Shown here in pieces: positions 22,937-38,105 of a DNA stretch of 50,914 bases. The position numbers and the translations under genes are program-made. The stretch spans positions 1-50,914 of the forward strand of contig JAKSIQ010000010.1 of assembly GCA_024398755.1 (NCBI GenBank). The letters run 5' to 3'. How positions within the stretch are numbered: position 1 is the stretch's first letter; every line of letters starts with the position of its first letter. Origin of the DNA: Bacteroidaceae bacterium (lineage in GTDB: Bacteria; Bacteroidota; Bacteroidia; Bacteroidales; Bacteroidaceae). The notes beneath the pieces are model-generated. The model had not been told where the DNA came from, searched no databases, and saw only the letters and a list, made by a program, of their open reading frames with translations.

Positions 22937-23848
22937 ATGCCCGATATTCACTTTGCACCGATTCAGGGATATACAGACCATGTGTATCGCAAAGCCCATT
23001 ACGAACTGGCTGGGGGTATCAGTACATATTATTCGCCGTTCATGCGTCTTGAACACGGCGAAGTGAGAAGACGCGACATTCGCGACATATCGGCCGAAAA
23101 CAATTCCGGTGTGCCGATGGTACCTCAAATTATTGCCGCCGATGCAATTGAACTGAAACAGCTCACCAATGTGGTCCGGGATAGCGGATACCGGCGCATT
23201 GATCTGAATATGGGATGTCCGCATCCGCCCCAGGCCGGCCACGGACGGGGCGCAGGCCTGCTTACGCGTCCTGATGCAGTCAGGGAAATCATGGCGGAAA
23301 TTGCCAGCACTCCTGACATGAAGTTCTCCGTGAAGATGCGGCTTGGTTTGGAAAGTCCTGATGAATGGCGGCAACTGGTTGACATATTGAACGATACTCC
23401 ATTGGAACACGTAACTCTACATGCCAGGACCGCCAGACAGATGTATCGCGGCGTTCCCGATATGGATATGTTCGATGCATTTCTGCAACAATGTCGGCAT
23501 CGGGTAATTTACAACGGTGGTATAAAGACATTGGCCGATTTCCAGAATCTGGAACAACGTTTTCCATCACTACAGGCGGTCATGATCGGTCAGGGACTAA
23601 TGGCAAATCCATGCTTTGCAACGGAATGCCGACAAGGCAGGCAGTTCACACAGGCGGAGTCCCAAAAGGTGATTATGGCAATTCACGACCGTATTTTCAG
23701 CCACGCATCGGCCACGCTGCAAGGCGACGCACAAGTTCTGACACACATGCAGGCCTTCTGGCGTCCGTTAGAAGATTCCATTGACCGCAAGTTGTGGAAA
23801 AAGCTCATAAAGACCTCATCACTCAGCAAGTATCGCGAACAATTTTAG
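22937..23848 (+). CDS. tRNA-dihydrouridine synthase
   Basis: An FMN-dependent enzyme reducing uridine to dihydrouridine in tRNA. The 303-residue TIM barrel has the family start FAPIQGYTD (6-14), PMVPQI near 61, the catalytic-Cys block LNMGCPHPPQAGHGRGAGLL near 90-109, FSVKMRLG near 129, HARTARQMYRG near 159 and YNGGIKT near 190. The catalytic block varies somewhat from the usual GCPxxxVxxxGxGAxLL. It is divergent from cdd. Its TAG stop (23846-23848) coincides with the first bases of the dispersed repeat. Confidence 0.9.
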   Translation: MPDIHFAPIQGYTDHVYRKAHYELAGGISTYYSPFMRLEHGEVRRRDIRDISAENNSGVPMVPQIIAADAIELKQLTNVVRDSGYRRIDLNMGCPHPPQAGHGRGAGLLTRPDAVREIMAEIASTPDMKFSVKMRLGLESPDEWRQLVDILNDTPLEHVTLHARTARQMYRGVPDMDMFDAFLQQCRHRVIYNGGIKTLADFQNLEQRFPSLQAVMIGQGLMANPCFATECRQGRQFTQAESQKVIMAIHDRIFSHASATLQGDAQVLTHMQAFWRPLEDSIDRKLWKKLIKTSSLSKYREQF

Positions 23849-23949: not shown

Positions 23950-23981
23950 TTTTGTAATAGTAAAACCTTATACTATCTTTG
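23950..23981 (+). promoter_or_regulatory. Promoter of the sulfonolipid/Hdr-like operon
   Basis: TTTTG at 23950-23954, exactly 19 bases, TATCTTTG at 23974-23981. Start site near 23988; leader of about 37 bases to the ATG at 24025. No other promoter of this quality is seen until the end of the eight-gene block at 32209. Confidence 0.7.
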
Positions 23982-24024: not shown

Positions 24025-25287
24025 ATGCAAAAAGACATTTTTGACAAGATTCGTGAATCATCAGGTGGCCCTATCGGCCAATATAGAGAAAAGGCTGACG
24101 GATACTTTGCATTCCCGAAACTGGAAGGCGAACTCGGTCCGTACATGAGGTTCAATGGTCAGGACGTTCTCTGCTGGAGTCTGAACAACTATCTTGGACT
24201 GGCAAACCACCCCGAAATAAGAAAAGTTGACGGTGAAGCCGCAGTACGCTGGGGCATGGCCTACCCTATGGGAAGCCGAATGATGACCGGCCAGACCGCC
24301 CTTCACGAGAAACTTGAGAACATGCTGGCCAAGTTCGAAAAGAAGGAAGCCGCTTTCCTGTTCAACTTCGGTTATCAGGGCATTCTTTCAACAATCGACT
24401 CTCTGGTAAGCCGTCATGACATTATAGTATATGATGCCGAATGTCACGCATGTCTGCTTGACGGAATACGTCTGCACATTGGCGACAAGTTCAAGTTCCG
24501 TCACAACGACGCACAGGACTGTGACCGCGTACTTGCAAAGGCACAGGCTCTTACCGAAGAGCGCGGAGGCGGCATTCTGGTAATTACCGAAGGCGTGTTC
24601 GGAATGACAGGCGCTCTCGGCATTCTGGATCAGATTGTAGCCCTCAAGAAGAAGTACAATTTCCGTTTCATGATTGACGATGCTCACGGATTCGGTGTCA
24701 TGGGTCCTCACGGACGAGGCACTTCCGAACATTTCAACTGCATGGATGGAGTCGATATCTACATTGGCGCATACGCAAAGTCAATGGCCACCATAGGCGG
24801 TTTCGTAGCCAGCGAAAAGGACATCATAACATATCTGCGTTACAACATGCGTTCACAGATGTACGCCAAGGCTCTGCCAATGCCAATTGTTGAAGGATGC
24901 ATAAAGCGTCTTGAAATAATTGACAGTCCTGAAGGTGACGAGCGCCGCGCACAGCTGTGGAAAGTGACACGCCGTCTGCAGGAAGGTTTCCGTTCGCTCG
25001 GTTATGAAATAGGTCCGGCCGAAGCATGCGTCACCCCGGTTCATCTTCGTTGTGGTGTTGACCAGGCGACACAGATTGCCGTTGACCTTAGAGAGAACTA
25101 TCATATTTTCTGCTCAATTGTCACCTACCCTGTCATTCCTCCAGGAATGCTGATTTTCCGCATCATATCTACAGCTGCACACAGCATAGAGGATGTTGAC
25201 CGCACTCTGGCCGCATTCAAGGATATCAAGGAGCGTCTTGACCGCGGTGAATATGACAAAGGATTTGCAGACAAAGCTATCAGATAA
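24025..25287 (+). CDS. Alpha-oxoamine synthase, probable cysteate fatty-acyltransferase
   Basis: A PLP enzyme of the serine palmitoyltransferase/AONS family (420 residues) that condenses an amino acid with an acyl thioester with loss of CO2. Visible: NNYLGLANHP at 54-63, GSRMMTGQTALHEKLE near 83-97, DAECHACLLDG at 137-147, the D-D-A-H site at 218-221, and the PLP lysine K252 in AYAKSMATIGGF. SPT and its relatives use the same fold, so the substrate cannot be read from these motifs. Context favours L-cysteate: the last gene of the same operon is a cysteate synthase, so the product would be 3-ketocapnine, the sulfonolipid precursor. Serine (giving 3-ketosphinganine) is the alternative. First gene of the operon; the next begins 7 bases later. 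Confidence 0.85.
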   Translation: MQKDIFDKIRESSGGPIGQYREKADGYFAFPKLEGELGPYMRFNGQDVLCWSLNNYLGLANHPEIRKVDGEAAVRWGMAYPMGSRMMTGQTALHEKLENMLAKFEKKEAAFLFNFGYQGILSTIDSLVSRHDIIVYDAECHACLLDGIRLHIGDKFKFRHNDAQDCDRVLAKAQALTEERGGGILVITEGVFGMTGALGILDQIVALKKKYNFRFMIDDAHGFGVMGPHGRGTSEHFNCMDGVDIYIGAYAKSMATIGGFVASEKDIITYLRYNMRSQMYAKALPMPIVEGCIKRLEIIDSPEGDERRAQLWKVTRRLQEGFRSLGYEIGPAEACVTPVHLRCGVDQATQIAVDLRENYHIFCSIVTYPVIPPGMLIFRIISTAAHSIEDVDRTLAAFKDIKERLDRGEYDKGFADKAIR

Positions 25288-25294
25288 CTATACC

Positions 25295-26080
25295 ATGCAT
25301 ACAGTCTGGATTACAGGAGCCTCATCAGGAATAGGCCGTGCATGTGCGTTCCAATACGCAATGCAGGGCTGCCGCCTTGTGCTTACATCAACGTCCAGAC
25401 CCACACTTGAACAGACAGCCGACAGATGCCGCGAACTGGGCGCATCGGACATACGCATACTGCCGTATGACCTTAGCGAACCGGACGGCATCAGGCTGCT
25501 TGTGAACGAAGCCTGGAACGCCTATGGCGGCATTGACATTCTTTTCTGCAACGCCGGCATAAGCCAGCGTACTGCAATTGAAGATACACCAATGTCTGTC
25601 GTAAGAAAAATAATGGAGGTAAATTTCTTTGCATCTGCCGCCATGGCTCAGGCTATCCTTCCGCTCATGATATCGAACGGAGGAGGCAGAATTGCCGTAA
25701 CATCTTCAATTGCAGGAAAATTCGGATTTCCGCTACGATGTGCGTACAGTTCGTCAAAATTCGCCCTGTACGGATTCTTTGAGACCCTTAGAGCAGAGAA
25801 CCGGAACAGGAACATATCGGTCACCATCATATGCCCGGGACGTGTCAGAACCAACATATCGTTCAATGCGCTTGACAAAGGAGGTGTAAGACACGGAGTC
25901 ATGGATCCGGGACAGGACGGCGGACTGAGTGCCGATAAGGCTGCCCGTAAGATTGTACGTGCGATAAAACGCCGCAGAAATGAGGTGCTTGTAGGACGCG
26001 GCGAACTGCTTATGGTTTACATAAAGCGTTTCTTTCCAAACCTTTGCGCCAGACTTGCCGCAAAAATCAAGCCTATGTGA
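25295..26080 (+). CDS. Short-chain dehydrogenase, probable 3-keto long-chain base reductase
   Basis: A 261-residue SDR. The NAD(P)-binding TGASSGIG is at residues 7-14, NAG near 89, the active-site Ser in VTSSIAGK near 137-144, and the catalytic AYSSSK (Y-x3-K) near 151-156. Next to an alpha-oxoamine synthase it most likely reduces the 3-keto group of the condensation product (3-ketocapnine to capnine), analogous to 3-ketosphinganine reductase. The start at 25295 gives a correct N-terminal Rossmann fold; the longer frame overlaps the upstream gene. Its TGA shares one base with the next ATG (TGATG). Confidence 0.85.
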   Translation: MHTVWITGASSGIGRACAFQYAMQGCRLVLTSTSRPTLEQTADRCRELGASDIRILPYDLSEPDGIRLLVNEAWNAYGGIDILFCNAGISQRTAIEDTPMSVVRKIMEVNFFASAAMAQAILPLMISNGGGRIAVTSSIAGKFGFPLRCAYSSSKFALYGFFETLRAENRNRNISVTIICPGRVRTNISFNALDKGGVRHGVMDPGQDGGLSADKAARKIVRAIKRRRNEVLVGRGELLMVYIKRFFPNLCARLAAKIKPM

Positions 26081-26775
26081 TGGAGAACCTGTTCGAAGAG
26101 CTTTGCAAGGACTACCGTTTCAAGGAGGGATTCCACAACTGCATAAATTGTGGAACCTGCACAGCCGTATGCCCTGCCGCCGAATTCTACAAATATGACC
26201 CCAGACGCATTGTCGATACCGTTCAGACACGTGACGATGCGCAGATTGAAGCTCTGCTGAAATCTGATACGATATGGTACTGCGGCGAGTGCATGAGCTG
26301 CGTGACGCGTTGTCCGCGAAAGAACGGTCCGGGGCTGGTAATAATGGCTCTGCGTGACCTGAGCATCAGACTCGGTTATTTTACCGAATCGGAAAAAGGA
26401 CGTCAGATGCTGCCTCTGACACATACCATGACCGGTAACATTCTCAAATACGGCTACTGCATACATCCGGAAACATTCAAATGGGAAGACCACATGGAAT
26501 CGGGCCCGGTATGGAAATGGCACATGGAACATCTTGAGAAAAGCATGAAACGTCAGGGTGCCAACTACATGGGCGAAGGTCCGGGCGTGCTCAGAAAAAT
26601 ACCTCAGGAATCGCTTGACGAACTGAAAGCCATTTTCGATGTGTCTGGAGGTACTGAGAGAATCAGGACGGTTGAGGAATATTCCCGCAAAAAGGCAATG
26701 GAAATGGGCGTGTCCATAGAAGAATATGAGAAGGATGCCTTTGAACATTGCAGCGAAACACATTTCAACGAATGA
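26080..26775 (+). CDS. HdrC-like iron-sulfur protein (first copy)
   Basis: A 231-residue soluble protein with two [4Fe-4S] motifs: C21-x2-C24-x2-C27-x3-C31-P and C68-x2-C71-x2-C74-x3-C78-P. The layout matches HdrC of heterodisulfide reductases and the sHdrC1 proteins of sulfur oxidisers. A roughly 140-residue helical C-terminal extension rich in charged residues follows. It should pass electrons between an HdrA flavin subunit and an HdrB cluster subunit. It overlaps the SDR stop by one base and the hdrB-like start by four (ATGA), showing tight coupling. Confidence 0.88.
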   Translation: MENLFEELCKDYRFKEGFHNCINCGTCTAVCPAAEFYKYDPRRIVDTVQTRDDAQIEALLKSDTIWYCGECMSCVTRCPRKNGPGLVIMALRDLSIRLGYFTESEKGRQMLPLTHTMTGNILKYGYCIHPETFKWEDHMESGPVWKWHMEHLEKSMKRQGANYMGEGPGVLRKIPQESLDELKAIFDVSGGTERIRTVEEYSRKKAMEMGVSIEEYEKDAFEHCSETHFNE

Positions 26776-27842
26776 TACTGGAAGGACGACAGAAAATTTG
26801 GAGCGATTACCAGAAGGACATTCCCGATGACCACTGGTATTACGTGCGCAGCTGTATACGCCAGAATTTCTTTCCGGCCAGCGAACGTATGTTCACTCAC
26901 ATTGTGAAGGATGTTCTCGGCAAAGATCTTTATGAGACTCCCCACCACACGACATGCGGAGGAATAGCATATCACTGCGACACCATTCCGCAGGAAACCG
27001 CCATGACCATAGTTGCGCGCCAGTTTGCGCTGATGACAGAGGCCGGCTACGAGAATTACTGTCCAAGCTGCATAACATCGTTCGGCAACTACATTGAAAT
27101 ACTTGAAACATGGCAGGAGTTTCCTGAACTGGAAGCAAAAATCCGTGAGAACCTGTGGAAAGCCTGCCGCCGTGAATTCAACAAGCCAAAATATCTGGCT
27201 CATTCAAGTGACCTTATATATCACTGGCGCGGTGAGATAGCAAAACGGGCAAAGAAACTGCTTGTAAACGTAGAAACGGGAGAACCGCTCAGAGTTGTGG
27301 AGCATATAGGCTGCCATTACGCCAAGATGTTCCCGAGCAAAGGCGTAGGCGGAGCCGAGTATCCATGCGTACTGGCAGGAATGATTGAAAGCTGGGGTGG
27401 ACAGGTAATTGACTATCCTGAACGCCGCCATTGCTGCGGTTACGGTTTCCGCCAGTATCACGTAAAGGCAAACCGCGGCTACAGCCTGTCAAACACGCAT
27501 AAGAAATTCGAATCAATGGAGCCGTACCATCCGGACCTTATCATAACCAATTGTCCCGGCTGTCCGTATTTTCTTGACCGATGGCAGTATGTCATTGCCT
27601 GTCAGACAGGAAAGACTTACGGCGAAAACGGTCATGGCATACCGGTACTGACATACGAAGAGCTTGCAGGACTGGTGCTTGGCTATGACCCGTGGGACCT
27701 GGGCCTGCAGCTTCACCAGGTTGCTGTAGAACCGCTTCTTCAGAAAATGGGAGTTGAATTTGATCCGGCAGCCAAATATCTGGGTCTTGACAAAGAAGAC
27801 CTCATAAAACCGGAACTGCCGTCATCAATCAAATGTTATTGA
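26772..27842 (+). CDS. HdrB-like protein with CCG domains
   Basis: A 356-residue protein with two CCG-type modules that in HdrB hold non-cubane [4Fe-4S] clusters, the site of disulfide chemistry. The C-terminal module is canonical: GCHY (near 182), HCCGYG (near 220) and NCPGCPYF (near 257). The N-terminal module is altered: C near 28, then TTCGG instead of CCG after 33 residues, then NYCPSC. One cluster may thus lack a ligand. Signal peptide and membrane segments are absent. The ATG overlaps the hdrC-like stop, and the hdrA-like gene begins 7 bases after its end. In sHdr systems the equivalent B subunit works with lipoate-bound sulfur; whether that holds here is unknown. Confidence 0.87.
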   Translation: MILEGRQKIWSDYQKDIPDDHWYYVRSCIRQNFFPASERMFTHIVKDVLGKDLYETPHHTTCGGIAYHCDTIPQETAMTIVARQFALMTEAGYENYCPSCITSFGNYIEILETWQEFPELEAKIRENLWKACRREFNKPKYLAHSSDLIYHWRGEIAKRAKKLLVNVETGEPLRVVEHIGCHYAKMFPSKGVGGAEYPCVLAGMIESWGGQVIDYPERRHCCGYGFRQYHVKANRGYSLSNTHKKFESMEPYHPDLIITNCPGCPYFLDRWQYVIACQTGKTYGENGHGIPVLTYEELAGLVLGYDPWDLGLQLHQVAVEPLLQKMGVEFDPAAKYLGLDKEDLIKPELPSSIKCY

Positions 27843-27849
27843 CACGACC

Positions 27850-28866
27850 ATGAACCACAATATTGTAATTATCGGCGGCGGAATCGCCGGAATGGAGGCG
27901 GCCAAGGCGCTTTTAGCCCTCGGCCACACTCCAATTCTCATTGAAAGCAAACCTTATCTTGGCGGTCATGTGGCAAAATGGCACAAGCTGTTTCCTGACA
28001 TGTCATCGGCCACAGAACTTGTTGAAAAGCTGCGCAAAGACATTACCGCAGCAAACATTTTCCTAAGCACCGACGTGATATCAATGAACCGTCTGGCAAG
28101 TGGATGGACTCTGAAACTCAGCAACGGCATTGTAATAAACGCATCGGCAATTCTGGTTTCAACTGGATTCAAACTGTTCGAGGCATCGAAAAAAGAGGAA
28201 TACGGTTACGGTGTCTATGAGAACGTGATCACCAATTCAGATCTGGAGGCCTGGTTCAACGGTGAATCGGACTGGAGGATTCCACAGAATCCCAAAACAA
28301 TAGGGTTCGTTCATTGCGTAGGTTCACGTGACCTGAAAGCGTGCAACGGACAATGCTCCAAGGTATGTTGCGCAACAGCCATAAAGCAGGCCATTGAAAT
28401 AAAGGAACGCTTTCCGTTTGCAAAAGTCTATTGCTTCTACATGGACTTGAGACTGTTCGGAAAGAAATACGAAGACTTCTATGTGAATGCGCAGCGTGAC
28501 TATGGAGTCCAATTCATAAGAGGACGCGTTTCGGAAGTCGGAGAAACAATCGACCATAGGCTTCAGGTCAAAGCCGAGGACACGCTCTCTGGCAAGCCTT
28601 TGAAACTTCAGCTTGACATGCTGGTTCTTATGGCAGGCATTGTGAACAACCCGAGCATCAGATCAATATCGGCAATGTCTGGTCTTGAAACTGACAGCGA
28701 CGGATTCCTGCGCAGCAGTGACAATGAATACGGTGTAGTTGAATCCGGCCAGCCGGGTATATACTTTGCCGGAGCCTGCACCGGTCCGAAAACCGTTCCG
28801 GAAACTGTGGCCGAAGCCCGTAGCGCAGCACTCCAGATACATTCCTACATTAAGAAATTGGCATGA
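27850..28866 (+). CDS. HdrA-like flavoprotein, short form
   Basis: A 338-residue FAD protein. The dinucleotide fold IVIIGGGIAGMEAAKAL is at 5-21; a cysteine set C156 (HCVGSRD), C165, C169, C173, C174 matches the CVGSRD-x-CSxVCC block of HdrA/QmoA proteins that holds a [4Fe-4S] cluster next to FAD; the C-terminal GIYFAGACTGPKTVPETVAEA contacts FAD. It lacks the extra ferredoxin domains of methanogen HdrA (about 650 residues), as do the HdrA proteins of sulfur oxidisers and QmoA. It would be the flavin hub of the complex. The next gene begins 4 bases after its stop. Confidence 0.9.
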   Translation: MNHNIVIIGGGIAGMEAAKALLALGHTPILIESKPYLGGHVAKWHKLFPDMSSATELVEKLRKDITAANIFLSTDVISMNRLASGWTLKLSNGIVINASAILVSTGFKLFEASKKEEYGYGVYENVITNSDLEAWFNGESDWRIPQNPKTIGFVHCVGSRDLKACNGQCSKVCCATAIKQAIEIKERFPFAKVYCFYMDLRLFGKKYEDFYVNAQRDYGVQFIRGRVSEVGETIDHRLQVKAEDTLSGKPLKLQLDMLVLMAGIVNNPSIRSISAMSGLETDSDGFLRSSDNEYGVVESGQPGIYFAGACTGPKTVPETVAEARSAALQIHSYIKKLA

Positions 28867-28870
28867 TTCC

Positions 28871-29188
28871 ATGATGGATTTCGGTTTCAAATTGAGCAAA
28901 AGCTCCACTATTGACCTGACCGATGTGAAAACGGACAGGTTTGAGCAGCTGTGCAAACAGGAACCGGGAGCACGTGTCTGCATAGGTTGCGGGTCGTGCA
29001 GCGCAAGCTGTCCGGCAGCAAGTCTGTCAGGAATGAGCATGCGCAAAGTGCTGCTGGCCATGCAGCGCGGACAGGATGTGCGTCCTATGCTTCGCAACTG
29101 CATGCTGTGCGGCAAATGCACTATGGTCTGTCCACGTGGTCTGAACACCAGAAACATCATTCTAAACATTTGCCGTCAGTATGATTGA
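28871..29188 (+). CDS. HdrC-like iron-sulfur protein (second copy)
   Basis: A 105-residue protein with two [4Fe-4S] motifs: C37-x2-C40-x2-C43-x3-C47-P and C77-x2-C80-x2-C83-x3-C87-P, nearly the minimal HdrC. It differs from the first HdrC-like protein by lacking the long C-terminal extension. A second, smaller HdrC after HdrA is also the arrangement in sHdr loci (C1-B1-A-x-C2-B2). Start at 28871 (ATGATG), since the longer frame lies within the hdrA-like gene. Its end overlaps the next start by 8 bases. Confidence 0.87.
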   Translation: MMDFGFKLSKSSTIDLTDVKTDRFEQLCKQEPGARVCIGCGSCSASCPAASLSGMSMRKVLLAMQRGQDVRPMLRNCMLCGKCTMVCPRGLNTRNIILNICRQYD

Positions 29189-30929
29189 GAGATTTCCAGA
29201 AGGCTTCCATCCGTTTGTCATTCCGTTTCTAGCCGGAATGGCTTTTGTACTTGTGGTATGCCTTGCAAAAGCTGCTGTGGTGTTTTTCCAGCTTGATGCC
29301 GGCAGCCGCAGACGGTATCTGGTTTCGCTCATCATTCCGAATGTTATAATAAAGAATGTGATTGACATAATACTGGATTGTCTGCTCCATGTCAAACTTT
29401 GGAAACGGAACCGCATGTTGGGGTTCATGCATTCCAGCATTGCCTTTGGCTGGTTCATGATAATACTGTTGGGACACATTCAGGTACTGTTATATTTTCC
29501 AAACCGTCTGAACACGTTCTACTACCCTATTTTCTTTGACTATTTCATTGAGGGAGGAAATGACACGCTCGTTTCAAAACTCATGGACGTGTTCCTTTAT
29601 GTAATACTTGCAGGCATTGCACTCGCCATAATCAAACGATTCTATTCCAAGCTTTTCGGAATGAAGCGCACAGCCAGGCCTACACTTTTTAACATGATAG
29701 GACTGTATTCGCTATGGGCCATATTTCCGTTAAGGCTGCTTGCCGAACTATGCGCACGCAGCGGCAATACCGATCCTACCTTATGGTGGGCATATTCAAT
29801 AGCTCTATGCACATTCATGTGCGTTCTGCCTTTCAGCCGATACCTTCACATTCCGGCCGAAATGCTGCTTGTAACCATGCGCAACGCCCATATTGAAGTG
29901 ACACGTCCGGGCAAGGGAATGGCAAAAGTCCAGACCGACAGCTGTCCGAACTGCGGTGTGTGCATCGATGCCTGCCCTATGAATGCCGATCCGGCCAATC
30001 TGAAGGACAGCACCGTTTACTACACACGCCAGTTGCGCAGAAACAACAGGGAAAGAATTGACCATATTGCAGACAAATGCATGCTGTGCGGCAAATGTAC
30101 GTCTGTGTGTCAGGTAGGAGTTGACGGTCCGAAACTGAGAATATTGGCACGTGCAACCCGCAAATACAATATCGGGGCCGATTTCACTACTGTTGAAAAC
30201 CTGCCTGTATTGCCCGACGCGCAAGGCAAAGTGCTGTATTTTTCAGGCTGCATGACGCAGCTTACTCCGCTTATAGGACGCAGCATTGAATCGGTACTGA
30301 AAAAAGCGCAGGTGGAATATGAATGGCTTGACAGGGATGGCGGATTGTGCTGCGGACGTCCTCTTCATACCGCCGGACGTCTGAAAGAGGCACAGGAACT
30401 GATTCACCGCAACGAGGAACTGATTCTTTCAAGCGGTGCCACCACCCTTCTGGTAAGCTGCCCTATCTGCTACCGTGAATTCAAAGAGAAATACGTTCTT
30501 CCAGGAGTGAATGTCGTACACTATGCCGACTATTTTACACAACTGATAGAGAACGGCAGATTGGTTCTCAAAGAAAAAAGCGACATATGCTACGTTTATC
30601 ATGACCCATGTGAACTCGGGCGCGGCTGCGGCATGTATGAAACGCCCAGAAAACTTATTGCCCAGACAGCCGGAATTGCTGAAGCACCTGCCAACAGGGC
30701 CGGAAGCATTTGCTGCGGAGGCTCATTGGGTTCACTTTCACTGGATTTCACACACCGTGAAAAGATTACCAGAGCATCACTTGAGAACCTTTACCAAAGC
30801 AGGGCCGATGCCATTGCCACAGCATGTCCGTTGTGCCTTGCAACATTTTCACGCTACAGCGACAGGCCTGTCAAAGACCTGGCCCAGATAATTGACGAAC
30901 AGACAAAAACAAACAATATCAGACAATGA
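29181..30929 (+). CDS. Membrane-bound HdrE-HdrD-like fusion
   Basis: A 582-residue fusion. Residues about 1-240 hold five to six membrane helices with histidines in places typical of b-type haem ligands (GFMHSSIAFGWFMIILLGHI near 76-95), like NarI/HdrE. Then two [4Fe-4S] motifs (CPNCGVCIDACP near 255 and CMLCGKCTSVCQ near 298) and two CCG modules, both canonical: GCM...LCCGRP...CPIC and PCE...ICCGGS...CPLC. The protein could exchange electrons between the menaquinone pool and the soluble Hdr-like subunits. It overlaps the previous gene by 8 bases and the cysteate synthase start by 4. Confidence 0.88.
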   Translation: MIERFPEGFHPFVIPFLAGMAFVLVVCLAKAAVVFFQLDAGSRRRYLVSLIIPNVIIKNVIDIILDCLLHVKLWKRNRMLGFMHSSIAFGWFMIILLGHIQVLLYFPNRLNTFYYPIFFDYFIEGGNDTLVSKLMDVFLYVILAGIALAIIKRFYSKLFGMKRTARPTLFNMIGLYSLWAIFPLRLLAELCARSGNTDPTLWWAYSIALCTFMCVLPFSRYLHIPAEMLLVTMRNAHIEVTRPGKGMAKVQTDSCPNCGVCIDACPMNADPANLKDSTVYYTRQLRRNNRERIDHIADKCMLCGKCTSVCQVGVDGPKLRILARATRKYNIGADFTTVENLPVLPDAQGKVLYFSGCMTQLTPLIGRSIESVLKKAQVEYEWLDRDGGLCCGRPLHTAGRLKEAQELIHRNEELILSSGATTLLVSCPICYREFKEKYVLPGVNVVHYADYFTQLIENGRLVLKEKSDICYVYHDPCELGRGCGMYETPRKLIAQTAGIAEAPANRAGSICCGGSLGSLSLDFTHREKITRASLENLYQSRADAIATACPLCLATFSRYSDRPVKDLAQIIDEQTKTNNIRQ

Positions 30930-32209
30930 AACCGGACAGTACAAAGTATCATCTGATCAACGTGGCCGATGGCCATGAATTTGAAGACAAAGGCTGGACT
31001 CTGAGCGATCCTGTCGGCAAGACGCCGTCACTGGTCAGAGCCGTGTATGACAACCGTTCGTTCGAACCTAGAACTGACCTTGACGGAATATACCGCTACG
31101 CAAACTGGATGCCGGTCAGCAGGACTTTGAAAAAGTCATGCGCACCTGTAACATACAAGTCAAAAGGACTGGCAAAGCATCTTGGTCTGAACAATCTTTA
31201 CATTACATATTCCGGCTGGAACCCCAAACTTGGCGCCAAGTTCCGCACCTGTTCTTTCAAGGAGACCGAGGCATATTCGGTACTTGCAAGAATGGATTCC
31301 CGCGAAAAACGCGTCCTGGTGGTTCAGTCTGCCGGTAATACGGCAAGAGCATTCGCTCAGGTATGTTCAGACAACAGGATACCTGTAGTCATCTGCGTAC
31401 CGTGTGACTGCCTTCATGACCTCTGGTTCACCAAGAAGCTGAACAAATGTGTCAAGCTTGTCACAGTACCGCACGGCTGTGACTATTACGATGCCATCAG
31501 CGTTGGTGAAAAGCTGGCAGAAAATCCGATGTTCATGCTTGAAGGCGGTGCCAAGAACATAGCCCGTCGTGACGGCATGGGAACCACCATTCTCAGCTTT
31601 GCCGAAAAGACAGGAGTGATTCCCGATGCGTATTTTCAGGCTGTAGGTTCCGGAACAGGTGCAATAGCCGCATGGGAAAACGCATGCCGTCTGGCCCAGG
31701 ACCCAAGATTCGGCAAGAACAACATGAAGGTATTCGTTGCACAGAACAAGCCTTTCACCCTAATATATGATTCATGGAAGGCAGGCTCACGTGAACTGTT
31801 GCCGCTTGATCCGGAGGTAGGACGCCGTGAGGCCGAAATCATACTGGCCAAAGTTCTTTCAAACAGAAAGCCCCCATACAGTATAGCCGGAGGACTGTTT
31901 GATGTGCTCAAAGCAAGTGGAGGCGATGTCTATCTGGCCGACAACAATGATATAATGTACTGGATGATGCAGTTCCGCAACCTTGAAGGATACGAACTGC
32001 TGCCTTCGGCCTGCGTTGCAGTTGCAGCACTGGCAAAGGCCGTTGAAGAAGGACGTGTAGCCAAAGAGGACAACATAATGCTGAACTGCACAGGAGGCGG
32101 AACGCTTGCCGCCATGAGCAAAGGCTACGTTTTCAAACAGAGCGACTTGGAAATAGCACCCGAAACTCCATCAGAAGAGATTATTGCAAAGGTCAAGGCT
32201 CTGTTCTGA
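30926..32209 (+). CDS. Cysteate synthase
   Basis: A 427-residue PLP enzyme of the threonine-synthase fold. It shows the layout of archaeal-type cysteate synthase: WNPKLGAKFRTCSFKETEAY with the PLP lysine K112, SAGNTARAFA near 134-143, AVGSGTGAIAAWE (phosphate loop) near 239 and CTGGGTLAAMSKG near the C-terminus. That enzyme makes L-cysteate from O-phosphoserine and sulfite; in methanogens it serves coenzyme M, in Bacteroidota sulfonolipids. Threonine synthase is an alternative by fold, but the motif set and the neighbouring acyltransferase favour cysteate. Last gene of the operon, translationally coupled to the membrane Hdr protein and followed by a terminator. Confidence 0.88.
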   Translation: MKPDSTKYHLINVADGHEFEDKGWTLSDPVGKTPSLVRAVYDNRSFEPRTDLDGIYRYANWMPVSRTLKKSCAPVTYKSKGLAKHLGLNNLYITYSGWNPKLGAKFRTCSFKETEAYSVLARMDSREKRVLVVQSAGNTARAFAQVCSDNRIPVVICVPCDCLHDLWFTKKLNKCVKLVTVPHGCDYYDAISVGEKLAENPMFMLEGGAKNIARRDGMGTTILSFAEKTGVIPDAYFQAVGSGTGAIAAWENACRLAQDPRFGKNNMKVFVAQNKPFTLIYDSWKAGSRELLPLDPEVGRREAEIILAKVLSNRKPPYSIAGGLFDVLKASGGDVYLADNNDIMYWMMQFRNLEGYELLPSACVAVAALAKAVEEGRVAKEDNIMLNCTGGGTLAAMSKGYVFKQSDLEIAPETPSEEIIAKVKALF

Positions 32210-32243
32210 ACATATAGGCAGACAGTCGCTGACCAGTAAAATG

Positions 32244-32282
32244 CTGTGGTTCGTCCATCCGACGGACCACAGTTGTTTTTTA
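32244..32282 (+). terminator. Terminator at the end of the sulfonolipid/Hdr-like operon
   Basis: Stem CTGTGGTTCGTC (32244-32255) / GACGGACCACAG (32261-32272) with one G-T wobble and a five-base loop, then TTGTTTTTT. It closes the eight-gene unit. Confidence 0.88.
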
Positions 32283-32402
32283 TGGTAAAATCCCCCACCC
32301 AACTATGTATAGGGGCATTATTTCACATTACAGCCCCCACCATCATGAAAAATAAATACAAAATTTGACGTATATTAAAACACACCTATTGGAAATAAAG
32401 TT

Positions 32403-32410
32403 TATTTTTG
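32403..32410 (+). promoter_or_regulatory. -7 box TATTTTTG of the first hybrid kinase
   Basis: TATTTTTG fits TAnnTTTG; the transcript would start near 32417, which excludes the longer frame from 32408 and supports the ATG at 32465. The 180 bases between the terminator at 32282 and the gene hold nothing else that I can support. Confidence 0.4.
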
Positions 32411-32464
32411 AAATTTATTAAGAACTGTAACAGTATAAAATACTGTTGTTATCAACTGGAAAAT

Positions 32465-35290
32465 ATGAAATCGTATCAGATCAAATTCAATGATGCCAGC
32501 AGCTTTGAAATAGAGCTGGAATCGCTGCGAAACAAATACGGAAGTATTCCCAGCACACGTTTTCTGTTCTACATAACGTGGTCGTATGACCCCAGAATCG
32601 ATCTGCCAGTTGTATCCGAGTGCATTGAAAGGTTGTTTCCTGATTCCATTTACTATGGGAATGAAGTGACAGCCAGTATAGTAGAAGGAGTTCATTCATA
32701 TGGACTGTATGTCAACTGCACCATATTTGAAGACAAAGAATCCAGTGTAAGACTGCTTTGGATTGAACAGAACACCGAGTACTCTTCGCTTGATGACCTG
32801 TGGGCATACTGCAAGACACTTGACGGTCTGAAAGGTATTGAGTTGATTCCATCCACCCAGGACAACGAAGTGCTTGGCATTGATGACAGCAAGACGGACA
32901 TAAGCAGCAACATTCTCATATTCGGCGGAATAAGCATCAATTATCAGGACCTGTCACTTGAAGCACAAGTCTTTGCAAAAGGCCATCCGGCTTCAAAGAA
33001 AGGTACCGCCGTCATTCTATATTTCGGCAGGAGTCTTAACATTACGAGCAACTGTATTGTAGGTTGGAAAGGACTTGGCCGATATATGACCGTAACCAGA
33101 AGCGGCGGAAAGATAATTCATGAGATTGACGGTCAGAAACCAAGAAACATATACAAGAAGTACCTTAACATTGTGGATGACGATTCAAGCTCGACGCTGG
33201 TATTTCCGCTGATGCTTGAAGAGGACGGAGTCGAATACCTGCGAACTCCACGCGGTTTCTATCCCGACAAGACCGTGGCAATGATTGTTCCCATCAGAGA
33301 AGGATCACAGGTCCGTATAGCATACGGTGACAAAAACACCATTCTTGACAGTCTGTATGACAAGATAGACGTAATAGAATCTTTCCATCCCGAAATCATC
33401 AAGTCATTCTCATGTTCTGCCAGAAAATGGTTCTGGGGCAATGATGATATCAGCCGTGAAACCATTCCATTGCAGGAAATAGCCCCCACCAACGGTTTCT
33501 ACACCGGAGGCGAGATTCTCAGAATAGGCAACAAAGTCAGAGTGATGAACTCAACCCTTGTGCTTATCAGTTTCAAGGAAGGCGAAGGGCAGGAAAAGAA
33601 AGTTCTTACCATAAAGAGAAGAGGCGATGACTCACTTCTGGCCCGTATCACGCATTTTACAGGAAAGATAGTCCAGGAACAGGAAGAGGCTCTGAAGGTT
33701 GCCAACGAAGAAAGACAACGCAACGCCATACTTCATGAAATCATCAATTCCCACAAATGGTCGTTCACCGTCAACCACAAAGACGAGATAGTGAATGCCG
33801 AGTTTGACCGCGGATTACAGGAATTGACAGACATTGACCTGTCATCATCATTTTACGCATGGGCGGAAATCATTCATCCTGATGACAAGGCCGGAGCATT
33901 GGAAATGTTCAAAAAGACCATTGCCGACCACAGCTGCAAGACCCCGTTCGACACCACATACCGTATGATGGAAAAAGACGGCAAATTCCACTGGTTCCAC
34001 TCTGCCGGACGAATGGTGCGTGACGAATATGGCAACGGCGAGTTTTTCGGCATCCACATTGACATCTCCAATCAGATTGAAGAACAGCTCAAGAACCAGA
34101 AACGCATTGAAGAGGCACTTGTCATGGCACAATCGGCCAACAATGCCAAGTCATCGTTCCTGTTCAACATGAGTCATGACATACGTACTCCTATGAATGC
34201 CATCAAAGGTTTTACCACAATGGCAAAGAAATTCAGCGGAGACGGAGAAAAGGTAAATGAGTATCTGGAAAAGATTGACCTTGCCGGCCAGCAGTTACTG
34301 CTGCTCATCAACCAGGTTCTTGAAATGTCAAGAATCGAATCGGGCAAGATTGAATTCGAAAACAAGCCTGTAAACCTTAAGGAAAGGTTCGAATCGTTCA
34401 TTACCGTAATCTCGGAACAGTCAAAGGAAAAGGGTATCAGGTTCCACTGTTCTATGGAAAACGTAAAGCACCATCACATTCTTACTGATGAAGCCAAGTT
34501 GAGCCAGATTACCATGAACATTACAGGCAACGCCATAAAATACACGCCTGAAGGTGGCAGCATTGACCTCACATTGAAGGAAACCGAATGTGACAGGAAA
34601 GGCTATGCAAGGTTCGTAATAACCGTAGCCGACACAGGCATAGGCATGAGCAAGGAGTTCCTGAAAGTGCTGTTCGACCCGTTCACACGTGAAAAGAGTT
34701 CCACTGTCAGCCACATCCAGGGCACAGGACTTGGAATGTCCATTGTCAAAAATCTTGTTGATCTGATTGGCGGACATATTGAAGTCCAATCAGAACAGGG
34801 CAAGGGCAGCCGTTTTGATGTTACTTTGGAAATGCAGATTGACGACAGCGAGCACACGGAAACACAGACCGATTCGCTGCTACAGGACAAGGATTTGAAG
34901 GGACGCAAGGTACTTCTTGTCGAGGACAATGAACTGAACCGTGAAATTGCCCGCTTCATACTTGAGGAAATGGGACTGGCTGTCGATGAAGCCGAAGACG
35001 GCGATATTGCTGTACACCGGATTGAAGGCCTGGTATCGAAAGGTGAATACAATAGGTATGATTTCATTCTGATGGACATACAAATGCCTGTAATGGACGG
35101 CTACGAAGCCACTAGAGCCATAAGGAATATTCTGGATGCGGTTGATGTCCATATTCCAATTATCGCAATGACAGCCAACGCTTTTGCGGAAGACAGGCAG
35201 AATTCGCTGGCAGCCGGAATGGATGCCCATCTGGCCAAGCCAATTGATGTTGACAAACTACATGATACACTGATACGATTCGAAAAGTGA
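32465..35290 (+). CDS. Soluble hybrid histidine kinase with FIST sensor
   Basis: A 941-residue cytosolic protein with no membrane segment. Residues about 1-380 are a FIST N/C sensor pair (FGGISINYQ, GTAVILYFGRSL, FPLMLEEDGVEYLRTP, VRIAYGDKNTIL), thought to bind small ligands such as amino acids. A PAS domain follows (about 430-540), then a coiled coil, HisKA with the phospho-His in [12 protein letters not shown] near 571, an HATPase domain with GTGLGMSIVKNL, and a C-terminal receiver with the phospho-Asp in [16 protein letters not shown] near 869. No output domain is present, so a separate DNA-binding or HPt partner is needed. It lies directly downstream of the sulfonolipid-type operon terminator and 10 bases before its paralogue. 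Confidence 0.92.
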   Translation: MKSYQIKFNDASSFEIELESLRNKYGSIPSTRFLFYITWSYDPRIDLPVVSECIERLFPDSIYYGNEVTASIVEGVHSYGLYVNCTIFEDKESSVRLLWIEQNTEYSSLDDLWAYCKTLDGLKGIELIPSTQDNEVLGIDDSKTDISSNILIFGGISINYQDLSLEAQVFAKGHPASKKGTAVILYFGRSLNITSNCIVGWKGLGRYMTVTRSGGKIIHEIDGQKPRNIYKKYLNIVDDDSSSTLVFPLMLEEDGVEYLRTPRGFYPDKTVAMIVPIREGSQVRIAYGDKNTILDSLYDKIDVIESFHPEIIKSFSCSARKWFWGNDDISRETIPLQEIAPTNGFYTGGEILRIGNKVRVMNSTLVLISFKEGEGQEKKVLTIKRRGDDSLLARITHFTGKIVQEQEEALKVANEERQRNAILHEIINSHKWSFTVNHKDEIVNAEFDRGLQELTDIDLSSSFYAWAEIIHPDDKAGALEMFKKTIADHSCKTPFDTTYRMMEKDGKFHWFHSAGRMVRDEYGNGEFFGIHIDISNQIEEQLKNQKRIEEALVMAQSANNAKSSFLFNMSHDIRTPMNAIKGFTTMAKKFSGDGEKVNEYLEKIDLAGQQLLLLINQVLEMSRIESGKIEFENKPVNLKERFESFITVISEQSKEKGIRFHCSMENVKHHHILTDEAKLSQITMNITGNAIKYTPEGGSIDLTLKETECDRKGYARFVITVADTGIGMSKEFLKVLFDPFTREKSSTVSHIQGTGLGMSIVKNLVDLIGGHIEVQSEQGKGSRFDVTLEMQIDDSEHTETQTDSLLQDKDLKGRKVLLVEDNELNREIARFILEEMGLAVDEAEDGDIAVHRIEGLVSKGEYNRYDFILMDIQMPVMDGYEATRAIRNILDAVDVHIPIIAMTANAFAEDRQNSLAAGMDAHLAKPIDVDKLHDTLIRFEK

Positions 35291-35300
35291 CAAGACATAT

Positions 35301-38105
35301 ATGCTGCACCTGAAATTTTTAAGAAAAGAAAACCGCAGACTGATTAACAGTATAACCGGAACATTCAATCTGGTTTACTCCGTCAACATGTCCGATGACT
35401 CATTCGCCATTATGAGGATGGATAGCGGACTTGCCGGTGCTGGAATTGCATTCAAGTCTTTTTCTCAAGTAAAGCAGTTCTTTCTGGATAACGTGGTGTA
35501 CAAATCCGACCGTGAAAAAATGGTCGAGGAATTGGACTACGACACCATACGCACAAAACTGAAAGAAGTCTCCACATACAGTCTTGAATACCGTGCAGTA
35601 ATTGACGGCATGACAATGTGGAACGAAATGAGCGTTTCGTCGCTTGAAGGTGACGATGTGCTGATTGGTTTTGCAGACAAACTGCACAACAAGCTTGGAG
35701 AAATCATAACGTTTGCAAATTATTTTCTTGACACTTACCTTTCTGCCTATTATGTAGGACTTGATGACATGACATGTCAGACATACAAGCAGTCACAGTA
35801 TTTTGACGGAAAATATCATTTTGACTCCAACTATTTTGAAGCAATCCAGCAATACATAAGCAATGACGTCCATCCCCAGGACCGTGAAGCGCTTCTTGTA
35901 GCCATACGTCCTGAACGCATGAAGGAACTTCTCAAGGAAAAGCCGGAATACACCCATGTGTTCCGTGACATTTCAACCGGGCAGGAGAAATCATTCCGTA
36001 TTCAGGTAATTCGTGGAGCCGATGACAGTCATGCCGCATTCGGATTCATTGACATTACGAGCGAACTGAACGAACAGAATCTCAGGCAGGAACAGATCAG
36101 GCAGAATGACAAGCTGAAAACCATTATTGAAAGTTTCACAAAGGATTATTCATCGGCCTGCATCATCAATTTCAAAAATGACTCTTTCCGAACTCTGACA
36201 AGAGTACAGCAGAGTGTCAGCGTCAATGACAACGCTACTTTCTCCAACACTTTTTCAATGTTTCTCAACTATGTCCACAAAGACGATTATGACACATTGA
36301 AAAGCATTTTCGACTTATCGTCTCTTTCAGATAAGCTGAAAACCGAGCATGACTTCACAACGCAGTTCCGCAGTATCATAAACGGACTTACCAGATGGAA
36401 CCTGGTACGCGTTTCAAAAATCAGTGACGAGGAAGCTATTCTTGCGTTTGCAGACGTTGACGACGAGGTTGCCGCAAAGATGGCACAGAATATCATATCA
36501 AAGGACTGTTATGGTGTATATCTCATTGATTTGGATACCGATACCATCAAGATTATCAAACAGCAGAAATCGAATGTACCGACTGAAGAATTCGCATCCG
36601 GACATCATTCAAAACTGTTTGGTGAACTGATTGCTTCGCTTGAAGGCAACAGCAGGGAGCAGGTTGCCGGACTTGATACAGTTGAAGGCATACGCAATCT
36701 GCTTCGCAAGGAGGACAAGCGTGAACTGCTTGTTGAATTTCCAGACAGCAACGGTGTCCTGACCAGACTGACATGGTATGTAATAGACAGGAAAAACGGT
36801 GAAGCCTGCAATGTATGTCTGACATTCTCCAATCTGGATGCCGAGCAGGCTGACAGCGTAAGGATGAGCGAAAAGATTGCCATGCAGAAAATCCAGCTTG
36901 AAGAGCAGCAGAAACAGTTGCAGGAAGCTCTTGCCATGTCACAGAGTGCCAGTCGTGCAAAGACCACATTCCTGAACAACATGAGCCACGACATACGTAC
37001 ACCGATGAACGCCATCATCGGCTTTACAGGACTGGCAAAGAATCATCTTGATGACAACGAAAAGGTCATGGACTACCTTGACAAGATAAGCCAGTCATCG
37101 AACCATCTGCTTTCGCTGATAAACGATGTGCTTGATATGAGCCGCATTGAGTCCGGCAAAATGAGCATCGAAGTACATCCTGAAGACATCTCCGAGATTG
37201 TCAGCACCATAGGCAATCTGGTTGAGGCCGATGTCAAGGCGAAACAGCTTGATTTCAGAATTGAAGCCGACGGAATTGCCGACAGCAATGTTGAGTGTGA
37301 CAAATTACGTTTGAACCAGATTCTTCTGAATATAATATCAAACGCCATCAAATATACTCAGGCTGGAGGTTCGGTTACCCTGCACGTTGACCAGACAAAA
37401 GCGAAAGCCGGATATGGCAAGTTCGTGTTCCAGATAAGCGACAACGGCATGGGCATGAGCAAGGAGTTCCTGAAAACAATATACGACCCGTTCACACGCG
37501 TAAAGTCATCGACCGTAAGTGGCATACAAGGTACAGGTCTGGGCATGGCTATCACCAAAAATCTGGTTGAAATGATGGGAGGAACCATCAGTATTGACAG
37601 TGAGTTGGGAAAGGGAACAAGCGTTGTCGTCAAATTTACATTCAAACTGATCAGGACAGACAATGTAATACCTGGCGAAGTTGCTGAAAATGACGCAACA
37701 GCAATTTCCGCCGACCAGATATCCAAACTTGACGGTAAAAAGATATTGCTTGTTGAAGACAATGAACTGAACCGCGAAATTGCAGGCACCATTCTAAACG
37801 AATTCGGGTGTACTGTCTTTGAGGCATCAGACGGACAAATTGCTCTGGACATGATATCAAAGGCATCAGTCGGCGACTATGACATTGTGCTCATGGATGT
37901 CCAGATGCCTGTAATGGACGGATACGAAGCTACCGGACGGATACGTAAACTTGACTCCCCGATATCGGACATTCCTATAATAGCAATGACTGCCAATGCT
38001 TTTGAAGAAGACCAGAAGGCTGCACTTGAAGCCGGAATGAACGCTCATATTGCCAAGCCGATAGATATTGGTATTCTTGTCAGAATATTGTCAAAATTTG
38101 TGTAA
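35301..38105 (+). CDS. Soluble hybrid histidine kinase with repeated PAS-like sensor domains
   Basis: A 934-residue cytosolic paralogue of the preceding gene. The N-terminal 510 residues contain about four divergent PAS-like units; two of them share a [18 protein letters not shown] / [18 protein letters not shown] motif, pointing to internal duplication. A Gln-rich coiled coil near 520-540 leads to HisKA (phospho-His in [12 protein letters not shown] near 561), HATPase ([12 protein letters not shown]) and a receiver (phospho-Asp in [15 protein letters not shown] near 864). The kinase-receiver half closely resembles that of the upstream gene while the sensors differ, so the pair could cross-talk or form heterodimers. 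Co-transcribed with it (10-base gap). The stop overlaps the promoter region of the rubrerythrin gene. Confidence 0.92.

Follow-up and report, generated by a model that had tools for sequence, protein, structure and literature searches.

Why genes for a sulfonolipid backbone should enclose genes for five Hdr-like proteins is the question raised by an operon on a single contig (G000:C2) of a Bacteroidaceae bacterium. The whole contig, 50,914 bases long, was analysed in this study and is called the window; the assembly that it belongs to has 1.97 Mb and is 87% complete. The operon occupies positions 24025-32209 of the plus strand and holds, in this order, genes for a SulA-type acyltransferase, a short-chain dehydrogenase (SDR), the Hdr-like proteins HdrC1, HdrB1, HdrA, HdrC2 and HdrDE, and a cysteate synthase. 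The host is an animal-gut-type Bacteroidales bacterium. To our knowledge, the source of oxidised sulfur for sulfonate synthesis in anaerobes without sulfate reduction is unexplained, and the operon is a named, testable candidate for that source.

The initial annotation of the window suggested that the five Hdr-like proteins serve the lipid pathway, for instance by producing sulfite from reduced sulfur or by balancing electrons through menaquinone. That they serve this pathway is supported by their co-occurrence with SulA, by recurrent physical linkage and by the distribution of the sulfite-forming enzyme CysH, and the genomic link of the Hdr-like set with sulfonolipid synthesis is strong. We consider it fairly probable that the complex is an LbpA-free relative of the sulfur-oxidising sHdr complexes, which makes sulfite for cysteate and passes the electrons to menaquinone. 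A link between an Hdr complex and sulfonolipids was not found described in the literature searched, which excluded most subscription journals.

Linkage of the Hdr-like genes to sulfonolipid synthesis

The two ends of the operon were assigned to cysteate metabolism. The acyltransferase was grouped by pairwise scores, and its best PDB matches are 7u7h (537 bits) and 28eh, a cysteate-C-fatty acyltransferase (CFAT; 523 bits), with serine palmitoyltransferase at 209 bits; its score against the NCBIfam serine palmitoyltransferase model is 275 bits, where the cut-off is 640. The structure 7u7h was taken as SulA since it fits the Lys251/Lys281 numbering of PMC9304779. In the accessible text of that paper Lys281 is the only residue by which the active sites of SulA and Spt clearly differ, Spt having Ala there, and is proposed as diagnostic. 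Lys282 of the window aligns with it, the offset being counted from the catalytic Lys251 in the alignment, and the residue is kept in all 59 aligned acyltransferases (the window and 58 from fetched loci). The enzyme clearly belongs with SulA/CFAT, with cysteate as the predicted substrate, as the initial annotation had expected of a cysteate-type and not a serine-type enzyme. A serine palmitoyltransferase identity is ruled out by the scores together with the diagnostic lysine. The last gene, also annotated as cysteate synthase at the outset, passes the TIGR03844 cut-off (418.2 against 324.9 bits), and its residues 6-427 match 9k3c, a cysteate synthase of solved structure, with 482 bits. The families of the first two genes were confirmed as alpha-oxoamine synthase and SDR. 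The capnine role given to the SDR follows from operon position only; 3-ketocapnine is a candidate substrate, and the 60 PDB matches listed, of 165, include only general SDRs.

A total of 393 genomes of the order were surveyed, and HdrB1 was found in 127, the TIGR03844-type cysteate synthase in 104 and the SulA-type acyltransferase in 276 of them. SulA is present in 118 of the 127 genomes with HdrB1 and in 158 of the 266 without (Fisher, 4e-13); of the nine that have HdrB1 but no SulA, five are 76-82% complete. It is also present in 99 of the 104 cysteate synthase genomes.

Besides the window's genome, 126 genomes have HdrB1; DNA around the gene was obtained from 116 of them, with many regions clipped by contig ends, and the others were judged by coordinates. 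The distance between SulA and HdrB1 is at most 10 kb in at least eight of the 127 genomes, from six families (G000, G634, G673, G700, G733, G776, G930 and G965), where about 0.75 would be expected at 3.4 Mb per genome; P is about 1e-6 if the genomes count as independent. Linkage in G733 was judged by coordinates only, and the place of the acyltransferase in G728 and G663 is not listed. The gene orders differ between families. SulA, a ThrC-like gene, the SDR and a VOC-family gene precede C1-C2-DE-B1-A in f130, and SulA and the ThrC-like gene precede C1-B1-A-C2-DE in f157. The latter gene set comes before SulA and the ThrC-like gene in f74, while in f91 SulA is followed by the complex and then by the SDR and VOC genes. 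In a seventh family, f58, the cysteate synthase stands directly after the complex in three genomes. In three of the four arrangements of SulA and complex outside the window, a second kind of pyridoxal phosphate (PLP) enzyme is thus encoded beside SulA. This ThrC-like enzyme scores below the cut-offs of both TIGR03844 and threonine synthase, and it may be an alternative or second kind of cysteate synthase. Copies beside SulA with paired N-terminal CxxC motifs were seen at loci L310, L313, L314, L318, L324 and L201.

In a tree of HdrB1 (134 rows, quick method), the 27 linked rows need four changes, against about 25 after shuffling, and lie in two separate parts. At least three gains or losses of linkage are forced by well-supported branches.

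GTDB contigs were scanned with an alignment of cysteate synthases, which yielded at least 570 relatives, and the counts of named relatives given here refer to the best 80. All eight genes, arranged as in the window, were found in 14 of them (in L151 the acyltransferase match is split in two) and in G472, so the operon is beyond chance. Three others (L122, L124 and L128) have Hdr genes before the cysteate synthase, with some genes missing or cut by the contig. In eight, SulA, SDR and cysteate synthase form a cassette in which no Hdr match was found, and L138 has only a piece of such a cassette. The remaining 54 have the cysteate synthase without SulA or Hdr matches, some on short contigs (in L175 an SDR lies on the other strand). 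The record titles of the 80 include no cultured species and many ruminants or horses.

The initial annotation had also expected the Hdr genes beside these lipid genes in related genomes, which proved true in part. No Hdr gene was found at 63 of the 80 named cysteate synthase loci, some of them contig-cut, and only three of 301 genomes of the window's own family have the cysteate synthase (E <= 1e-20). The expected neighbourhood is found instead as the linkage of HdrB1 with SulA in six families. Likewise, the expected co-occurrence holds for SulA, and the complex directly before the cysteate synthase in the seventh family agrees with it.

A putative source of sulfite

Cysteate synthase makes cysteate from phosphoserine and sulfite, and the usual source of sulfite is PAPS reductase (CysH). 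We propose that the operon is a self-contained capnine module. Its cysteate synthase would convert phosphoserine and sulfite to cysteate, SulA would join cysteate with acyl-ACP (acyl carrier protein) to give 3-ketocapnine, and the SDR would reduce this to capnine. The five Hdr-like proteins would form one membrane-attached, sulfite-making complex, in which the CCG clusters of HdrB1 would oxidise sulfane sulfur delivered by some carrier. The electrons would run from HdrC1 to the flavin of HdrA, to HdrC2, to HdrDE and, via its membrane domain, to menaquinone. The membrane domain would thereby take the electron-accepting place of LbpA, so that no LbpA would be needed. With the sulfite/sulfide couple at about -116 mV, just below menaquinone at about -74 mV, electron flow in this direction is feasible. 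In anaerobes unable to reduce sulfate, the complex would replace CysH as the sulfite source. We infer from sequence and genome comparison the single complex, its sulfite product, the electron direction, the menaquinone acceptor and a heme on three histidines.

The distribution of CysH was compared in 157 SulA genomes of the order, 156 of them at least 96% complete and one, G733, 83% complete. They were chosen for completeness. Of these, 85 have HdrB1, out of 118 such genomes in the order and not counting that of the window, and 72, out of 158, do not; CysH was called by NF002537 above its cut-off. CysH is missing from 34 of the 85 HdrB1-bearing genomes and from 7 of the 72 HdrB1-free ones (odds ratio 6.2, Fisher 2e-5); the difference stays (29/77 vs 7/72, p = 9e-5) after dropping eight genomes whose locus has C1-B1 only or B1-A only. 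The association survives a shuffling of labels in bins of genome size (p = 0.0002) and one between the means of families (p = 0.0006). Six of the 17 families mixed for HdrB1 follow the trend (f51, f68, f74, f121, f161 and f164). Linkage of the complex with SulA or cysteate synthase was seen in 13 genomes, 12 of which have no CysH (G000, G472, G571, G601, G634, G673, G700, G776, G815, G930, G957 and G965; the first three are only 80-87% complete). The same is true of all 14 named eight-gene genomes, whose completeness is not given. Since CysH is missing more often from genomes with HdrB1, sulfite production is the better supported of the two roles suggested at the outset, the other being plain electron balance.

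All seven Hdr-less cassettes with enough flank have a gene for a YeiH-like membrane protein beside them, compared with 4 of 18 loci at which the complex is present. These 18 are the window, L113 and 16 named loci, with L128 and the f58 loci left out; the loci are close kin and the counts are not independent. PF03601 was confirmed in two of these proteins (L129 11276-12613 and L136 12031-13404), and the others were recognised by similarity (L123, L126, L130-L132, L138, L139, L151, L155 and L186). YeiH is put forward in PMC11582611 as a candidate for sulfite export. The YeiH-type protein is a candidate transporter of sulfite or sulfonate, and import of either could replace the complex in Hdr-less cassettes. 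YeiH is present in four of the seven SulA genomes without HdrB1 and CysH and in one of three others tested (G000, G601 and G957).

Several results weigh against a sulfite-making complex in the place of CysH. When HdrB1 labels were shuffled within families, the association with CysH was non-significant (p = 0.20), and families f53, f79, f105 and f108 run counter to it. CysH is also encoded in 51 of the 85 HdrB1-bearing genomes and in G733, which is linked by coordinates. In the eight genomes with Hdr-less cassettes, neither HdrB1 (searched without a positive control) nor CysH was found, so another sulfite source must exist or the rule is incomplete; a strict rule of complex or CysH is ruled out by these eight and by the 51 genomes with both. 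Three of the seven SulA genomes free of HdrB1 and CysH are also without YeiH. No sulfur carrier gene recurs beside the complex among clustered open reading frames of at least 80 aa, a size at which a TusA-size protein is missed. HdrB1 is a proxy only for the complex, as 17 of 117 loci do not show all five genes. Among SulA genomes it also occurs independently of this cysteate synthase (odds ratio 0.86, p = 0.61), and hence the complex follows SulA and not this cysteate synthase. The nearest relatives are all records of the metagenome-assembled genome type.

Relation to sulfur-oxidising Hdr systems and rival explanations

The closest described counterpart is the type I sHdr system, with the order shdrC1B1AHC2B2 in PMC11582611 and sulfite as its product (PMC11582611, PMC10332631, PMC6067878). 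The lipoate-binding LbpA, a homologue of GcvH, is described as essential there (PMC10332631, PMC6067878), and in the model published for sHdr it may receive two of the four electrons (PMC6067878). The window has the same kinds of subunits in the same order, C1, B1, A, C2 and a two-CCG protein, when DE is taken as the counterpart of B2. Its HdrA is short, of the 6tjr kind and alignable nearly end to end, and the CCG cluster motifs are shared. Unlike type I, no sHdrH gene lies between HdrA and HdrC2, which are four bases apart (it was not sought elsewhere). Unlike the soluble B2 and B3 proteins, the two-CCG protein is fused to an N-terminal membrane domain with invariant histidines, and the set stands in a lipid biosynthesis operon of Bacteroidales rather than in a dissimilatory sulfur-oxidation cluster. 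We conclude that it is a variant of sulfur-oxidising Hdr complexes and not sHdr in the strict sense.

A search for LbpA found no second strong GCV_H (PF01597) match in 23 genomes with HdrB1 or a linked cluster, on the assumption that LbpA matches PF01597. Exactly one strong GCV_H protein was found in 19 of them, and none in G957 (100% complete), G000 (87%), G571 and G472; G804 and G885 each have a further, weak match, which scores below the cut-off and lies within a far larger frame. None of the lipoate assembly genes sLpl(AB) and LipS1/S2 was noticed by eye among 21 neighbour proteins, where no dedicated search was made.

Homology of HdrA, HdrB and HdrC, and a membrane part paired with two CCG domains, also relate the set to the HdrABC and HdrDE of methanogens. 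However, the window HdrA is without the N-terminal part of the HdrA of about 650 aa, the features of HdrABC and HdrDE are joined in one operon in the window, and the methanogen NCBIfam cut-offs were missed (HdrA2 247/1100, HdrA 193/1400, HdrB 128/450 and HdrC 82/350 bits). With CysH, a PAPS/APS reductase, the complex would share sulfite as the proposed product. Whereas CysH reduces activated sulfate, the complex would oxidise sulfane sulfur, in the opposite redox direction. The lipid genes have the three roles of described sulfonolipid producers, SulA/CFAT, the 3-ketocapnine reductase (KCR/CapC) and cysteate synthase, with SulA Lys281 kept. In Alistipes finegoldii the reductase genes are described as scattered and not clustered with cfat and the Cys genes (PMC11211663, as far as its accessible text goes), whereas the window has candidates for all three steps and the Hdr complex in one operon.

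Co-occurrence with SulA and physical linkage would fit equally well if the complex were an electron conduit only, which turns over a thiol/disulfide and balances electrons via menaquinone without making sulfite. The HdrDE membrane domain with three invariant histidines, and the independence of HdrB1 from this cysteate synthase, would suit such a role as well. We regard it as unlikely, because by established knowledge of acyltransferase and SDR chemistry no known capnine step needs a conduit, and because it predicts neither the excess of missing CysH nor the transporter in complex-free cassettes. Somewhat less probable again is that a cysteine- or carrier-bound persulfide is oxidised directly to a sulfinate or sulfonate, bypassing free sulfite. 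The unusual N-terminal CCG of HdrB1, with three invariant cysteines, means that the active site may differ from that of HdrB, and 84 of the 127 HdrB1 genomes have no cysteate synthase of this kind; against this, a cysteate synthase of the sulfite-using family ends the same operon in the window and in the 14 named relatives, and other linked clusters have the ThrC-like PLP enzyme beside SulA.

The complex may instead have an unrelated anaerobic energy role, its associations with SulA and missing CysH coming from shared lifestyle or lineage. This is improbable in our estimate, a little more so than the direct oxidation. The 107 unlinked rows of the 134 in the HdrB1 tree, the non-significant within-family CysH test and a two-component pair as the commonest same-strand neighbour would agree with it, while the linkage above chance in six families with differing gene orders and the size-stratified CysH test argue against it. 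An ordinary sHdr system with LbpA and lipoylation genes elsewhere in the genome is very improbable, despite the resemblance to type I in subunit set and order and the nearly full-length match of HdrA to 6tjr. There is no room for sHdrH between HdrA and HdrC2, the HdrB2 counterpart is fused to a membrane domain, and on the GcvH counts in the 23 genomes an ordinary sHdr with LbpA is rejected.

Sulfite production is the best of the mechanisms considered and is fairly probable. We hold it evenly balanced whether, beyond this, Bacteroidales without sulfate reduction use a biosynthetic, LbpA-independent, menaquinone-coupled complex to oxidise sulfane sulfur for their outer-membrane sulfonolipids. 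If so, Hdr-like complexes would have a biosynthetic role, a respiratory sulfur-oxidation machine would have been made assimilatory, and a membrane cytochrome could presumably stand in for the LbpA step of sHdr. The link recurs in several bacterial families, and SulA Lys281, HdrB1, the cysteate synthase, the VOC protein and the YeiH transporter may serve as genomic markers for candidate sulfonolipid producers. Sulfonolipids of gut Bacteroidota have been linked to host inflammation (PMC11211663).

Operon structure, Hdr-like proteins and neighbouring genes

Table 1. Genes of the operon in the window and candidate transcription signals around it.
Feature	Position	Strand	Basis
Promoter-like site TTTG-N19-TANNTTTG (candidate)	23951..23981	+	Pattern match, Bacteroidetes type
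SulA-type cysteate acyltransferase (alpha-oxoamine synthase), 420 aa	24025..25287	+	PDB matches 7u7h, 28eh; catalytic Lys252, SulA-diagnostic Lys282
Short-chain dehydrogenase, candidate 3-ketocapnine reductase (KCR/CapC role)	25295..26080	+	Pfam PF00106; NCBIfam PRK06181 above cut-off
HdrC1-like	26080..26775	+	Two [4Fe-4S] motifs; NCBIfam HdrC 82 bits, equivalog cut-off 350
HdrB1-like	26772..27842	+	NCBIfam HdrB 128 bits, cut-off 450; PDB HdrB match
Short HdrA-like flavoprotein, 338 aa	27850..28866	+	Cys cluster C156/C169/C173/C174; 6tjr match
HdrC2-like, 105 aa	28871..29188	+	Two [4Fe-4S] motifs; Pfam Fer4 families
HdrDE-like fusion, 582 aa	29181..30929	+	Pfam CCG twice and Fer4; hydropathy
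Cysteate synthase, 427 aa	30926..32209	+	TIGR03844 418.2 bits; PDB 9k3c
Intrinsic terminator	32243..32283	+	13-pair stem (32243-32273), then TGTTTTTTAT; fold z -5.55

All five Hdr genes are present at 100 of the 117 HdrB1 loci examined, which suggests, from the conserved operon, that the proteins form one complex. Their order is C1-B1-A-C2-DE at 96 loci (two with an extra match) and C1-C2-DE-B1-A at four. The 17 partial loci comprise nine with C1-B1 only, three with B1-A only and five from which one gene or two are absent, in some cases at the end of a contig. The C1-B1 pairs without other subunits (L106, L263, L272, L278, L279, L293, L295, L297 and L302) raise the possibility that HdrB1 relatives may also serve another system. 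Genes for MinD/Mrp-like ATPases, named by eye, lie beside the pair in L272, L278 and L297.

The residues expected to bind iron-sulfur clusters are conserved throughout. Eight cluster cysteines are invariant in HdrC1 (127 rows) and eight in HdrC2 (120 rows), as are the cluster cysteines of HdrA (125 rows). HdrA residues 5-330 align with 4-336 of 6tjr (349 aa, 200 bits), which we take to be sHdrA of H. denitrificans; methanogen HdrA (643-659 aa) is matched mainly by residues 94-329 and a short N-terminal stretch. The C-terminal CCG domain of HdrB1 is complete (C181, C221, C222, C261 and C264), and the N-terminal one is reduced to C28, C62 and C100. The cysteines of both sites are invariant in 134 of 134 rows, and the N-terminal CCG is probably unable to hold the usual five-Cys non-cubane cluster. 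HdrDE starts with a membrane part (five or six hydrophobic segments by hydropathy in residues 11-218), followed by two [4Fe-4S] sites and then by two complete CCG domains. H70, H84 and H223, the last just past the hydrophobic part, and the cluster residues are invariant in 115 of 115 rows; the three histidines would bind heme and the domain would react with quinone.

The initial annotation described eight plus-strand genes with gaps or overlaps of at most eight bases, and a recount of all seven junctions agrees. Seven bases separate the acyltransferase from the SDR (start 25295), the SDR and HdrC1 overlap by one base and HdrC1 and HdrB1 by four, HdrB1 and HdrA are seven bases apart, HdrA and HdrC2 (start 28871) four, and HdrC2 and HdrDE overlap by eight and HdrDE and cysteate synthase by four. 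A promoter before the first gene and a terminator after the last had also been named, and both were recovered, the terminator as a strong one (Table 1). The 3' end of the promoter-like site lies 43 bases upstream of the first ATG. The pattern, the Bacteroidetes sigma consensus, has seven matches on both strands of the window, with a mean of 1.04 in shuffled sequences. The window-wide scans for sigma-70 sites (15 vs 10.3, standard deviation 3.2) and terminators (11 vs 9.5, standard deviation 3.5) are within the shuffle range, and therefore only individual sites count. Spacing, promoter match and terminator mark two neighbouring genes as units separate from the operon, that of a dihydrouridine synthase upstream (22937-23848) and that of a hybrid sensor kinase downstream (32408-35290).

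A sample of the phylum had 6 of 296 genomes above the cysteate synthase cut-off, the five besides the window belonging to one family, f29. In this GC-rich family of another class, the cysteate synthases are 37-38% identical, and the 20-kb regions of all five genomes have no Hdr match. Viral carriage of the cysteate synthase was rejected, as two stretches in IMG/VR fit a pattern and neither is a relative. In G571, a genome of the same genus, there are two diverged cysteate synthase genes (G571:C23 and G571:C59; L038 and L112). They compare with that of the window at 76% and 68%; HdrDE comes before one of them, on a contig of 3.1 kb, and the other stands alone.

A VOC/glyoxalase-superfamily protein of about 356 aa is encoded before SulA in most operon relatives and near SulA or Hdr genes in other families, and it has no match in the window. 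It was seen at L119-L121, L124-L127, L129-L137, L139, L151, L152, L155, L159, L175, L186 and L113, and further at L304, L310, L311, L313, L314, L211 and L213-L215. It may be an unrecognised sulfonolipid gene. In L124 (3221-11281) the VOC protein, SDR, complex and cysteate synthase form one operon in which no SulA gene was found.

A LuxR-family response regulator is encoded near 13, and a HisKA_3 sensor kinase near 11, of the 117 Hdr loci (for example L109, L111, L242, L292 and L298), mostly upstream and on the same strand. This pair possibly regulates the Hdr genes. In the window, two large hybrid sensor kinases lie in tandem directly 3' of the operon (32408-38105), the first with FIST domains.

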